A stretch of 34,833 nt of DNA from an uncultured Ilumatobacter sp. (GTDB lineage Bacteria; Actinomycetota; Acidimicrobiia; Acidimicrobiales; Ilumatobacteraceae), in assembly GCA_938044705.1 (NCBI GenBank), contig CALIOL010000038.1, positions 1 through 34,833 of the forward strand. The letters run 5' to 3'. Shown piece by piece: positions 21,634-25,568 of this stretch. Positions within the stretch are counted from its first letter, which is position 1. Each line of letters starts with the position of its first letter. The notes beneath the pieces were generated by a model. It made no database searches. It was not told where the DNA came from and saw nothing but the letters and a program-made list of their open reading frames with translations. The position numbers and the translations under genes are program-made.

Positions 21634-21706
21634 TCCGGGATAGCTCAGTTGGCAGAGCACGGCACTGTTAATGCTGTTGTCGCAGGTTCGAGCCCTGCTC
21701 CCGGAG
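21634..21706 (+). tRNA. tRNA-Asn (GTT)
   Basis: A full cloverleaf is visible: acceptor TCCGGGA (21634-21640) pairs with TCCCGGA (21699-21705), the D-loop is AGCTCAGTTGGCAGAGC, the anticodon loop is CTGTTAA with GTT at 21667-21669, and the T-arm is AGGTTCGAGCCCT. The 3' CCA is not encoded. Confidence 0.95.
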
Positions 21707-21710
21707 CTCG

Positions 21711-21745
21711 AAGGCCCACCGTCCACGCGGTGGGCCTTTGTCATT
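21711..21745 (+). terminator. Intrinsic terminator after tRNA-Asn
   Basis: A 10-bp perfect stem, AAGGCCCACC (21711-21720) with GGTGGGCCTT (21729-21738), closes an 8-base loop. A T-rich tail (TTTGTCATTTT) follows the stem. Confidence 0.85.
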
Positions 21746-21815
21746 TTCTGCAGCGGCGACGCCCGTCGTGGCGTAAACCTCAGATTGCTCAGCGGTCGTC
21801 TGGTTGACTGACGGT

Positions 21816-23072
21816 ATGGCAGACGCTCCTGATCCAATCAGCGAGCGATCGACCCGGAAGTTGGCGATGCTCGTGGTCGCCGCGGTGGCCCTCGCTGCGT
21901 GCTCGAGCGGCGATCTGTCCGACGCTGCCACCGAGGCCAGGAGCAACGCGTCGAGCACCGTCGAACCCGACCTCGTGGCGGAGACGGAGACGACCGAGCC
22001 GCCCGTCACGACGCCGCCCCCGGCGACGTCCAACAGTTCGAGTACCGTTCCGCCAGCCGGCTCGACGACGTCGATCGCTCCGGAACCGGCGACGACGCCC
22101 GCACCGACGGTTCCGCCCGACCCGACGTGTCCCTCGCCGGTCGACCTGCTGCCAGCCGACGATGAGCCGGTCAAGGTGATCCTCGATACGGACTTCGCGG
22201 GAGACGTCGACGATGCGGGAGCGTTGGCGGTGCTCCACGTGCTCGCCGATGCCGGGGGCGTCGAGATCTTGGCCGTGATGGTGTCCGACGGTGGCCCGGC
22301 GCCGTCGCACCGAGCGATCGATGCGATCAACACGTACTACGGGCGACCCGACATTCCGATTGGCGTGGTCGCAGGTGTCGCTCCGCAGGCTGGTTCCTCC
22401 TACGTCGAGGCGCTCGCCGAGAACTTTCCGAACGACGTCGACGACCCACCCGCTGCAGTGGACCTGTACCGAGAGATCCTCAGCGAACAACCGGACGACT
22501 CCGTGACCGTCGTGAGCGTCGGGTATCTCACGAACCTCGACGCGCTGCTGTCTGCGCCGCCTGACGGGCGGAGCGACCTTCCGGGAGATCAGCTCGTGAG
22601 CGCAAAGGTGCGTCGTTGGATCGCAATGGGTGGGGCGTATCCGGATTCGTCGATTCATCCCTTCGGTGCGGAGTTCAACTTCGTCGAAGACGCCACAGCG
22701 ACGCTCAATGCAGTCGCCGGGTGGCCGTCTCCGGCGTTGTTCAGCGGCTGGGAAGTCGGCGACGCCGTGCTGACCGGTGCGATTCTTCAGGCGGAGACAC
22801 CTCCTGAGAACCCTGTCCGCGAGGCGTATCGATTGTTCAACGGCGGCGAGAACCGCCACAGCTGGGACCTCACCGCAGTCCTGGTTGCCGTTCGCGGAAC
22901 GGCTGGATTCTTCGAGGTGTGTGCAGGGCGGAACGTGATCGGGCCAGGTGGAAGCAACACGTGGGAACTCGAAGCGCAGGGCCCCCACGGATTTCTCCGA
23001 CTGACCGTGCCGGGGGCGGACGTCGCTGCGCTTCTCGACGCTCTGCTGATTACGCCGCCGAGTGCGCCGTGA
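21816..23072 (+). CDS. Lipoprotein with nucleoside-hydrolase-like domain (intact Asp motif)
   Basis: The product has 418 residues. A signal peptide with lipobox ALAAC (Cys29) anchors it outside the membrane. A Thr/Pro-rich linker (about 50-105) leads to an IU-nucleoside-hydrolase-like domain. The Asp cluster reads ILDTDFAGDVDDAGALAVL (Asp124, 126, 130, 132, 133), matching the Ca2+/ribose-binding DTDxxxDD-type motif, and a late Asp lies in SWDLTAVLVAVRG, as in the family. NTYYGRPDIPIGVV and WIAMGGAYPDS are also family-like. It would cleave ribonucleosides or a related N-glycoside extracytoplasmically. The substrate is not proven. The ATG at 21816 gives a normal signal peptide, and a TTG at 21804 is possible. 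A close paralogue forms the ectodomain of the kinase 70 bp downstream. Confidence 0.85.
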   Translation: MADAPDPISERSTRKLAMLVVAAVALAACSSGDLSDAATEARSNASSTVEPDLVAETETTEPPVTTPPPATSNSSSTVPPAGSTTSIAPEPATTPAPTVPPDPTCPSPVDLLPADDEPVKVILDTDFAGDVDDAGALAVLHVLADAGGVEILAVMVSDGGPAPSHRAIDAINTYYGRPDIPIGVVAGVAPQAGSSYVEALAENFPNDVDDPPAAVDLYREILSEQPDDSVTVVSVGYLTNLDALLSAPPDGRSDLPGDQLVSAKVRRWIAMGGAYPDSSIHPFGAEFNFVEDATATLNAVAGWPSPALFSGWEVGDAVLTGAILQAETPPENPVREAYRLFNGGENRHSWDLTAVLVAVRGTAGFFEVCAGRNVIGPGGSNTWELEAQGPHGFLRLTVPGADVAALLDALLITPPSAP

Positions 23073-23142
23073 CGGTCCATCGGCATGACCCACGCGAACC
23101 GGCCAGACCCGGAGTGGGTATCGTCGCTGCGAAAGGGGTGGG

Positions 23143-25488
23143 ATGGATCTCGGAATTCCAGGGTTGGAGCGAGCTGAACGAGTAGGTCAGGGCGGCTTCG
23201 CGACGGTGTACAAGGCGTATCAGCCTGCGTTCGCGCGTACGGTCGCGGTGAAGGTACTGACCGGTGCGCAGTTCGACGAGGACAGCCAGCTGCGGTTCGA
23301 GCGAGAACTTCGCGCCCTCGGACTGCTGTCGGAACACCCCGGCATCGTGACCGTGCACGACACGGGGTTCACCACCGATCGCCGGCCCTACCTCACGATG
23401 GCGTTCGTCGTCGACGGAACGCTGAAGGATCGGCTGAATGCGTACAGATCCGTGCCCTGGGCTGAGTCTGCCGCGATCTTGATTCGTTTGTGTGGAGCGC
23501 TCGAGACCGCTCACCGGAGTGGAATCATCCACCGGGACATCAAGCCGGCAAACGTGCTGATGTCGCGTTACGGCGCTCAACTCAGCGACTTCGGCATCGC
23601 TCGAATTGCCGGCGCGCACGAGACCCAGGCCGGTGTGGTGATGGCGAGCATCGCCTACGCGGCTCCCGAAGTGCTCGAAGGCGCGCGTCCGAGCGCTGCG
23701 GCGGACATCTACTCCCTTGGATCGACCGCCTACACGATGCTGCTCGGGAGTCCGCCGTTCGAGCGTGCTGGCGACGAGACCCACCTGGCTGTCATGCTGC
23801 GCATTCAGGCGGAGCCTCCTCCGGATCTCCGCGCCTACGGGGTGCCAGCGGACCTCGCCGCTGTCTTGGAGGCGTCGCTCGCAAAGGATCCGGCGAACCG
23901 ACCGCAGTCGGCGCTCGAGTTCGGTCAGCAGCTGCAGGAAGTGTTGCGCGCCAACGGCGAACGCGTCCCGGAGATGATCCTGGCGCCGGAGACGAACGCA
24001 GCGGTCCAGAAGGAACAACTCGGTGGGGCGCCAAAGCCGGTTGCTCCCGTGGTTGATGAACGAATGGTTCGAACATCCGCCATGGGTGACGCGGGCGAAA
24101 CCGCTCCGACTCCGATCGTGCCGACTCCGCCCGTGACGGCGAACCCGCCGCCGGTGCACGCGCCGCCAGTGATGCTCGCCTCCCAGATGCCGCGGCGAAA
24201 GTGGGGACTCATCGGTGCCCTCCTGGTCGCCGGAGCGCTCCTCGTCGTCGCAATCGCGGGAATCGCGGTCGCGATGCGAAACAGCAACGGCGACGATGTG
24301 GCCACTCCGATGGTCTCGGACAGCGGCGTTGCGACGTCGCTGCCCGAAGAACGGGCGCCGACGTCTGACCAGGTTGCGACCAGCGTGGCCGATACGACCC
24401 CGAGTACCGACGTCCCCGGGACGGAGCCACCCACGACAGAGGCACCGACTACGGAGCCGCCGGTCACCGATCCACCCACAACCGAGGCTCCTGCAATCGT
24501 CCTTCCGACATTCAGCGAGGGCCCTGTGGTGGCCGATCCGGTGTGTGGAGTCAGCGAGCGACTGTTGCCGAGTTCGGGCGGCGCACAGAGCGTGATCCTC
24601 GATGTCGGCGTCGGTGTCGGCGTGGATGATCTCGGAGCACTCGCTGTCCTGCATGCGCTTGCCGATGCCGGCGAGGCGGAGGTCCTCGCGACGATGGTGT
24701 CGGTTGGTGGTGACCCGGACGCTGCGTCGACGGTCGACGCGGTCAACACGTACTACGGCCGTCCGAATGTTCCGATCGGTGTCGTGACCGGGCCGGCGCC
24801 GACGGGTACGTCGCCGTACACCGCGCAGATCGCCGCGGGCTTCCCCAACGATGTGTCGGAGCCGGAGCCGGCCGTCGATGTGTATCGACGGGTGCTGGCC
24901 GCCCAGCCGGACGCATCGGTCACCGTCGTGACCGGAGGTTTCCTCACGAACCTGGCTGCGTTGCTTGCGTCGCCCCCCGATGCCGTGAGTGACCTCACGG
25001 GTGAGCAGCTCGTGGGAACGAAGGTGGCGCGATGGGTTGCGATGGGCGGCGCGTACCCGGCGTCAGCGGACTACTTCGAGAGTGCCGAGTTCAACTTCTC
25101 CGAAGACCCGGCGGCGGTGCGCAGTGTCGTCACCGACTGGCCGACGCCGGCGGTGTTCACCGGCTTCGAGGTCGGAAATGACATCTCGCTCGGAGCGGCG
25201 TTGCAGTCGGCGACACCGGAATCCAACCCCGTTCGGGAGGGCTATCGGCTCTGGGGAGCGACCGACGATGGGCCGGCGTTCGACCTGACCGCAGTCCTGC
25301 TCGCGGTGCGCGGGACGTCCGGGGGTGCGTTCGAGGTGTGCACGGGCCGCAACATCGTCGCCGTGGACGGCACGAACGCGTGGGAGAACCGTGAGAGCGA
25401 TCGACGTGGGTACGTCAGGATCGTCGGGTCGGCCGACGGGATCGGTGACACGCTGGATGATCTCCTCACGACGCCGCCGGCGAACTGA
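23143..25488 (+). CDS. Transmembrane Ser/Thr kinase with degenerate nucleoside-hydrolase ectodomain
   Basis: The product has 781 residues. Residues 8-270 are a Pkn-type kinase with all motifs intact: GQGGFATVYKA (15-25), AVKVL (Lys37), HRDIKPANV (130-138), DFG (149-151) and APE (174-176). A Pro-rich juxtamembrane stretch follows, then one membrane segment (354-378, WGLIGALLVAGALLVVAIAG) and a TEPPTTEAP-type linker. The ectodomain (about 470-781) is a paralogue of the preceding lipoprotein. In it the Asp motif reads ILDVGVGVGVDD: Asp487, 495 and 496 remain, but the positions of Asp126 and Asp130 of the lipoprotein are Gly489 and Gly493. FDLTAVLLAVRG is kept. Catalysis is therefore unlikely, and ligand sensing is the inferred role. 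GAAAGGGGTGGG precedes the ATG, a good ribosome site. Confidence 0.9.
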   Translation: MDLGIPGLERAERVGQGGFATVYKAYQPAFARTVAVKVLTGAQFDEDSQLRFERELRALGLLSEHPGIVTVHDTGFTTDRRPYLTMAFVVDGTLKDRLNAYRSVPWAESAAILIRLCGALETAHRSGIIHRDIKPANVLMSRYGAQLSDFGIARIAGAHETQAGVVMASIAYAAPEVLEGARPSAAADIYSLGSTAYTMLLGSPPFERAGDETHLAVMLRIQAEPPPDLRAYGVPADLAAVLEASLAKDPANRPQSALEFGQQLQEVLRANGERVPEMILAPETNAAVQKEQLGGAPKPVAPVVDERMVRTSAMGDAGETAPTPIVPTPPVTANPPPVHAPPVMLASQMPRRKWGLIGALLVAGALLVVAIAGIAVAMRNSNGDDVATPMVSDSGVATSLPEERAPTSDQVATSVADTTPSTDVPGTEPPTTEAPTTEPPVTDPPTTEAPAIVLPTFSEGPVVADPVCGVSERLLPSSGGAQSVILDVGVGVGVDDLGALAVLHALADAGEAEVLATMVSVGGDPDAASTVDAVNTYYGRPNVPIGVVTGPAPTGTSPYTAQIAAGFPNDVSEPEPAVDVYRRVLAAQPDASVTVVTGGFLTNLAALLASPPDAVSDLTGEQLVGTKVARWVAMGGAYPASADYFESAEFNFSEDPAAVRSVVTDWPTPAVFTGFEVGNDISLGAALQSATPESNPVREGYRLWGATDDGPAFDLTAVLLAVRGTSGGAFEVCTGRNIVAVDGTNAWENRESDRRGYVRIVGSADGIGDTLDDLLTTPPAN

Positions 25489-25494
25489 GTGCTG

Positions 25495-25568
25495 TGGGGC
25501 GGGCGGGACTTGAACCCACGACCGAGCGATTATGAGTCGCCTGCTCTAACCAACTGAGCTACCACCCC
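25495..25568 (-). tRNA. tRNA-Ile2 (CAT anticodon, lysidine-type)
   Basis: On the minus strand the cloverleaf begins GGGGTGG (from 25568) and ends CCGCCCC plus A. The anticodon arm GGCGACTCATAATCGCT and the variable/T region match the minor isoleucine tRNA of bacteria (E. coli ileX-type) rather than tRNA-Met. The CAT anticodon (25532-25534) would be modified by TilS to read AUA. CCA is not encoded. Confidence 0.85.

Follow-up and report, generated by a model that had tools for sequence, protein, structure and literature searches.

Our analysis of 34,833 nucleotides from an uncultured Ilumatobacter sp. (contig CALIOL010000038.1; the whole stretch is here called the window) revealed a gene for a receptor-type Ser/Thr kinase whose ectodomain is homologous to nucleoside hydrolases (NHs) and lacks the residue aligned with Asp10 of these enzymes (canonical NH numbering, as in RihA, is used throughout). 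The gene lies beside that of a predicted lipoprotein, whose NH domain retains the full Asp motif, and the same pair was found in one congener, genome G404. On balance, we favor the reading of the protein as a receptor Ser/Thr kinase that crosses the membrane once, uses an NH without Asp10 as its sensor, and would read a ligand beside its lipid-anchored twin. Coordinates of all features are given in Table 1.

The architecture of the kinase agreed with an original prediction, made from the sequence alone, which had described an intact kinase, one membrane segment, a Thr/Pro linker, and an ectodomain close to the preceding lipoprotein. The Pkinase match scored 146.7 bits against a Pfam cut-off of 31.7, and the motifs GQGGFATV (residue 15), VAVK (34), HRDIKPAN (130), DFG (149), and APE (174) were all identified. 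By domain and motifs, the protein is a Hanks-type Ser/Thr protein kinase for which phosphotransfer is predicted. According to the positive-inside rule, basic residues mark the cytoplasmic side of a membrane segment. Because the sequence RRK immediately precedes the lone segment detected by hydropathy, the kinase domain would be cytoplasmic and the NH domain would lie outside, implying export of the latter. This ectodomain matched IU_nuc_hydro (PF01156) at residues 484-683 with an E value of 2.1e-17 and 64.2 bits (curated cut-off of 34.2), and it is 53% identical over 316 amino acids to the lipoprotein encoded at 21804-23072. Furthermore, Cys 468 and Cys 733, the sole cysteines of the aligned domain, occupy columns common to both kinases and both lipoproteins and would fit an extracytoplasmic disulfide.

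The kinase motif reads VILDVGVGVGVDD (residues 484-496), whereas the lipoprotein carries VILDTDFAGDVDD. The two Asp residues replaced by Gly are the second and third of five in the lipoprotein stretch ILDTDFAGDVDD (D8, D10, an inserted D, D14, and D15). The second one aligned with NH Asp10 both in the HMMER comparison with RihA and in the hhalign comparison with canonical NHs; the other, at the G493 site, was placed by both tools in an insertion of two residues, which is absent from canonical NHs. In RihA, Asp10 is the general base, and Ca2+ is held by Asp10, Asp15, Asp241, the backbone oxygen of Thr124, the 2′ and 3′ hydroxyls of the ligand, and water (PMC2898832). Judged by these alignments, the kinase ectodomain has lost the general base and one Ca ligand, both represented by Asp10, while the other lost Asp is not a canonical catalytic residue. 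The claim that two catalytic-site aspartates are missing therefore stood for Asp10 and had to be given up for the second. The alignments also showed that Asp8, Asp14, Asp15 (D496), the Thr124 equivalent (T602), Glu164 (E649), and Asn166 (N651) are kept in the kinase ectodomain. D714, the Asp241 equivalent, is kept by motif only and lies outside the profile-aligned stretch; the residue before it is Phe in both kinases and Trp in both lipoproteins. Because the general base is lost, the ectodomain is probably catalytically dead, that is, without hydrolase activity. A crystal of the engineered Asp10Ala NH from T. vivax contained intact inosine (PMC12648331); loss of Asp10 can therefore turn an NH into a binder and need not abolish binding.

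The homology of the ectodomain to NHs is firm. An AlphaFold2 model built from a three-row alignment had a mean predicted local distance difference test (pLDDT) value of 52.7 and a predicted template modeling (pTM) score of 0.58 and was usable for approximately residues 11-170 of 317, i.e., for about the first half of the domain and not for the pocket in detail. All 50 Foldseek matches of this model at E values up to 0.001 were NHs or NH-like effectors, with TM-scores of just 0.32-0.48 whichever of the two lengths was used; the C-terminal portion of the model was poor. The lipoprotein model, built from the same rows (pLDDT of 51.1 and pTM of 0.56), likewise retrieved NHs or NH-like effectors among the 50 matches listed of 55, and PDB entries 1kic and 1kie, linked to the T. 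vivax Asp10Ala mutant, were among the matches of both models. Profile-profile comparison matched the ectodomain to NHs with a probability of 99.0 over 183 columns. The predicted NH relationship was thus borne out by Pfam, Foldseek, and profile-profile comparison, and no fold other than that of NHs was seen in the usable first half of the model.

We next consider how unusual the change at position 10 is. Among the 64 NH rows that cover the motif, this position is Asp in 62 and Gly in 2, both of which are kinases of the type described here; after removal of five double fetches, the counts were 57 and 2 of 59 distinct rows. The alignment comprised 66 rows from 65 sources (the window and L041 gave two each, and L025 gave none), chosen as best matches and not as a random draw. 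L039 and L050 miss the motif, and loci repeating the window or L041 copies (L002-L004, L033, L035, L040, and L042) were left out beforehand. The loci fetched twice were L021/L053, L022/L064, L028/L071, L030/L059, and L037/L049, which leaves 61 distinct rows, 59 of them covering the motif. Viral contigs scanned for extra rows gave two loci, neither of which was used. It is very unlikely in our view that the ectodomain is still an enzyme with an altered chemistry or substrate. Its conserved Asp8, Asp14, Asp15, Glu-Phe-Asn motif, and Asp714, as well as the purifying selection described below, would fit such an activity, yet the general base is lost here while it is kept in each of the other 62 motif-covering rows. 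As a separate observation, all seven of the loci L043-L048 and L006 carry an NH-like motif, DTDLS-x-WWDD (DTDLSRWWDD in L048), in which Trp occupies the place of the Asp found in other insertion-type relatives.

Only 6 of 221 genomes of the family matched the ectodomain query, and close matches were confined to two of them, the window genome (G000) and G404, each with a lipoprotein-kinase pair. The G404 kinase has 733 amino acids and an ectodomain 65% identical to that of the window; its motif, VILDTGVGLGIDD, has Gly at both sites, versus Asp in VILDTDFASDVDD of the adjoining G404 lipoprotein. The double Asp-to-Gly change noted in the original prediction was thus found in both genomes, the second being that of the sole orthologue found; no orthologue with the full Asp motif was identified. 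On the basis of this one orthologue, both Gly changes are old and fixed and go beyond a chance observation. Kinase and lipoprotein NH domains share 53-56% identity. In a tree of 18 of the 66 NH rows, the two kinase ectodomains formed one clade (99/97) and the two lipoproteins another (97/94), some other rows being long-branched, and the duplication therefore predates the species split. These separate clades ruled out a recent duplication or gene conversion, and an assembly artifact was ruled out by the presence of the same pair, with different flanks, in G404.

To describe the constraint on each part, ratios of nonsynonymous to synonymous substitutions (dN/dS, Nei-Gojobori) were calculated between G000 and G404. 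The ratio was 0.20 for the kinase domain and 0.31 for the ectodomain, and it ranged from 0.26 to 0.35 across the juxtamembrane, membrane, and linker parts, in which a high dS makes the values uncertain. The NH domain of the lipoprotein gave 0.16. By this measure, the ectodomain is under purifying selection. A decaying fusion, in which the ectodomain is merely a tether or spacer, appears quite unlikely. The weaker constraint on the ectodomain than on the lipoprotein (0.31 versus 0.16) and the occurrence of the pair in just 2 of 221 family genomes speak for it; however, the orthologue shares 206 of 318 residues in the ectodomain, against 24 of 68 aligned residues in the linker, and both Gly are fixed and both Cys kept in the kinase ectodomains. 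Across 314 gap-free columns of the four rows, 22 fixed differences separate kinases from lipoproteins. Four of them fall within the 10-column Asp motif (hypergeometric P of 0.003) and six in the 14 columns preceding Asp714 (P of 0.0001, for a region picked after the list was seen). In five of the 22 the kinases lose an Asp, and in none do they gain an acid.

The tRNA-Asn and tRNA-Met genes that flank the pair in the window are 79 bases apart in G403 and 63 in G408, with sequence matches on both sides, and relative to these genomes the window carries approximately 3.7 kb extra at 21708-25493. This site is not comparable in G134 and G404, because no tRNA was found beside the corresponding left-hand gene there. 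In G404, the pair is flanked on one side by a Sir2-like gene (identified by eye) and on the other by a gene whose G134 counterpart comes directly after the Sir2-like gene. The window genome has a matching stretch, Sir2-like gene included, without the pair. Being present at two different sites in two genomes, the pair therefore moves as a unit. Two insertions, or one insertion plus one relocation, offer the most economical explanation, although for either site by itself the congeners may have lost the pair. Comparison of the two end regions of the unit gave no direct repeat longer than 7 bases, and an integrase was not searched for. No terminator-like site was found in the 70-base gap between the lipoprotein and kinase genes (one strand), and the two genes may be cotranscribed. 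A third NH, of the canonical type, is encoded elsewhere in the window genome.

A search with kinase residues 1-376 identified relatives in all 10 sampled genomes of the genus. Pfam was applied to the seven matches ranking directly after the G404 orthologue. Two carry Bmp (PnrA-like) ectodomains (L092, E value of 1.7e-36; L095, E value of 2.1e-34), and one carries a phytase-like (esterase-like, PF13449) ectodomain (L094, E value of 2.8e-30), which is the sole PF13449 match in four genomes searched. The L092 and L095 kinases are 64% identical to each other, and the L092 kinase domain is 54% identical to that of the window kinase over 261 residues. The attachment of differing ectodomains to related kinases speaks for a receptor function of the C-terminal parts, and by this comparison the kinase looks like a receptor chassis. 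Two further observations were made. Both L092 and L095 contain a second kinase-like open reading frame downstream on the opposite strand. In the window genome, a 1103-codon frame with a C-terminal Bmp domain (family search) was found on contig C175 (L117:64-3372, plus strand); by eye, it combines a region like a BTAD/AAA-type regulator with a membrane segment.

The sister kinases also bear on the possibility that the dead domain is a pseudoenzyme partner and not a small-molecule sensor. In that case it could pair with the twin lipoprotein, and the kinase would respond to whether this protein is present or to the state it is in. We consider this unlikely. It would agree with the two genes being kept together at two different sites, with the 53-56% identity of their domains, and with the oligomeric state that NHs can adopt, RihA being a tetramer (PMC2898832). 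However, no second Bmp or phytase-like match was found on the same contig as the sister kinases (draft assemblies), and a paralogous partner next door is thus not a general rule.

Fusions of an NH to a kinase are rare in the genomes sampled. The ectodomain query matched 29 of 298 genomes of the order sample, and a five-row profile matched 130 of 395 genomes of the class sample, mostly weakly; in the phylum sample, at E values up to 1e-12, the only match among 396 genomes was the window genome itself. The three samples overlap and do not hold every genome. In 18 other matched places with an open frame of at least 500 amino acids, tblastn with the kinase domain found no kinase (the control locus L035 was found), and motif inspection of 14 of these places was likewise negative, although short loci and contig ends could hide one. 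A scan of genome contigs, for close relatives only, gave a single match, a secreted-type NH without a kinase in a Bacteroidetes assembly, and plasmid records gave three matches, none covering 80% of the query. Beyond the window and G404, the sampled genomes yielded no further fusion of an NH to a kinase. Limited searches of open-licence full texts found no described receptor kinase with an NH ectodomain, which fits the earlier statement that none of this design was known. The tethered domains listed in a survey of 993 prokaryotic Ser/Thr kinases are other ones, and neither "nucleoside" nor "hydrolase" appears in its main text (PMC2877116). As judged from these sequences, the NH-ectodomain receptor kinase is real, testable, and, among the sampled genomes, rare, and its function is putative.

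For our preferred reading we infer the following course of events. An extracellular ribosyl compound, either a nucleoside or a relative, would bind to the dead ectodomain and survive there. Binding would alter the pairing of ectodomains and, by such a dimerization-type mechanism, activate the kinase inside the cell. The lipoprotein, if active, would clear the signal by hydrolyzing this compound or a related one at the cell surface. An extended version, which we regard as possible but rather doubtful, holds that the pair is a mobile two-gene sensor-eraser cassette in which the dead-NH kinase reads an extracellular ribosyl compound and the live lipid-anchored copy erases it. Here GVGxG, which replaces the acidic loop after the first strand, may have adapted the site to a phosphate-bearing ligand such as a nucleotide or ADP-ribose in place of Ca2+-bound ribose, and a single genus chassis would receive exchangeable sensors from secreted or binding proteins.

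Several observations weigh against the receptor reading. Residues 171-317 of the ectodomain model almost all have a pLDDT below 50. The other Ca-ligand and ribose-contact positions are kept, and residual activity of the ectodomain is therefore possible; in addition, some relaxation is possible because its dN/dS is approximately twice that of the lipoprotein. Eight of the 10 sampled genomes of the genus, several of them incomplete, had no match to the pair, and only two such kinases are present in the sample, both in draft assemblies (369 and approximately 190 contigs). Four of the seven next-nearest kinases have no ectodomain named by Pfam. The Bmp family includes nucleoside-binding proteins (PMC7093131, among others), but a nucleoside theme common to the ectodomains is not established because the best NCBIfam match of the L092 Bmp ectodomain was a putative B6-binding model, at 70.8 of 400 bits and thus far below the cut-off. 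Finally, the work reported on HopQ1, an NH homologue with an altered Asp motif, detected no cleavage of standard nucleosides and no binding of them (PMC3608555), and the ligand of the window kinase may therefore not be a common nucleoside.

Table 1. Features of the lipoprotein-kinase unit, its flanks, and related congener kinases (window positions unless a locus is named)
Feature	Position	Strand	Basis
Lipoprotein gene, 422 amino acids from listed TTG; lipobox-like ALAAC, Thr/Pro linker, NH domain with full Asp motif VILDTDFAGDVDD	21804..23072	+	Pfam IU_nuc_hydro E 6.4e-16; hydropathy; lipobox by eye
NH domain of lipoprotein, residues 125-422	22176..23069	+	Pfam and alignment
Receptor-type Ser/Thr kinase gene, 781 amino acids, ATG start	23143..25488	+	Start 70 bases past lipoprotein stop, same strand
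Kinase domain, residues 9-255, motifs complete	23167..23907	+	Pfam Pkinase E 1.1e-42
Lone membrane segment, approximately residues 354-378, RRK just before	24202..24276	+	Hydropathy 2.78 at residues 360-378
Thr/Pro-rich linker, residues 379-463	24277..24531	+	Sequence
NH-like ectodomain, residues 465-781; Cys 468 and Cys 733	24535..25485	+	Pfam, alignment to lipoprotein, Foldseek
Altered Asp motif D487-V-G489-V-G-V-G493-V-D495-D496; G489 at NH Asp10 position	24601..24630	+	Profile alignments
Val521: Val in both kinases, Asp in both lipoproteins	24703..24705	+	Four-row alignment
Phe713-Asp714; Asp714 taken as equivalent of Ca ligand Asp241	25279..25284	+	By motif, not structural or profile alignment
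tRNA-Asn, left neighbor of unit	21634..21707	+	ARAGORN
Terminator-like hairpin after tRNA-Asn	21709-21740		Terminator-like site search
tRNA-Met, right neighbor of unit, 5 bases past kinase stop	25494..25568	-	ARAGORN
Congener Ser/Thr kinase with Bmp/PnrA-like ectodomain	L092:1573-4422	+	Pfam
Congener Ser/Thr kinase with Bmp/PnrA-like ectodomain	L095:1591-4437	+	Pfam
Congener kinase with phytase-like ectodomain	L094:2056-4566	-	Pfam

To our knowledge, the ligands of bacterial receptor Ser/Thr kinases are mostly unknown outside the PASTA kinases. The sensor of the window kinase descends from an enzyme family of known chemistry and, since a twin with the full motif is encoded next door, the substrate of this twin would provide a direct list of ligands to try. 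If the reading is true, the kinase represents a natural case of an enzyme turned into a receptor by loss of a catalytic residue, mirroring the engineered mutant crystallized with its intact substrate.

Compared with known systems, the ectodomain is homologous to the IU/CU nucleoside hydrolases (RihA, RihC, CfNH, and TvNH; PF01156) and, like them, keeps Asp8, Asp14, Asp15, LTNL, EFN, and, by motif, the C-terminal Asp; unlike them, it has Gly at Asp10 and is fused to a kinase and a membrane segment. The two-residue motif insertion sets it apart from canonical NHs and is shared with several secreted NH-like relatives. The HopQ1/XopQ effectors resemble it in combining NH homology with a changed Asp motif; however, they are effectors and not receptors, and the HopQ1 change is a different one (DXXXDXDD) (PMC3608555).

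With the PASTA kinases (PknB, PrkC, and Stk1), the window kinase shares the Hanks kinase, the single membrane segment, and a C-terminal ectodomain, and its best NCBIfam match was PknB_PASTA_kin; nevertheless, it remained below the NF033483 cut-off (220.8 of 450 bits) and had no PASTA match in Pfam. PknD of Mycobacterium tuberculosis likewise joins a receptor Ser/Thr kinase to a folded extracellular sensor (PMC6213207), but this sensor is a beta-propeller and no relative of NHs. By analogy, the closest resemblance in logic to the kinase-lipoprotein pair is offered by BlaR1. The extracellular sensor of BlaR1 shares structural homology with class D beta-lactamases (PMC5957439), a precedent for a receptor whose sensor is homologous to a class of enzymes. 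The pair would have in common with BlaR1 the arrangement of a sensor plus an enzyme, whereas BlaR1 differs in acting through an intracellular zinc protease and in having a sensor that is acylated by its ligand (PMC5957439).
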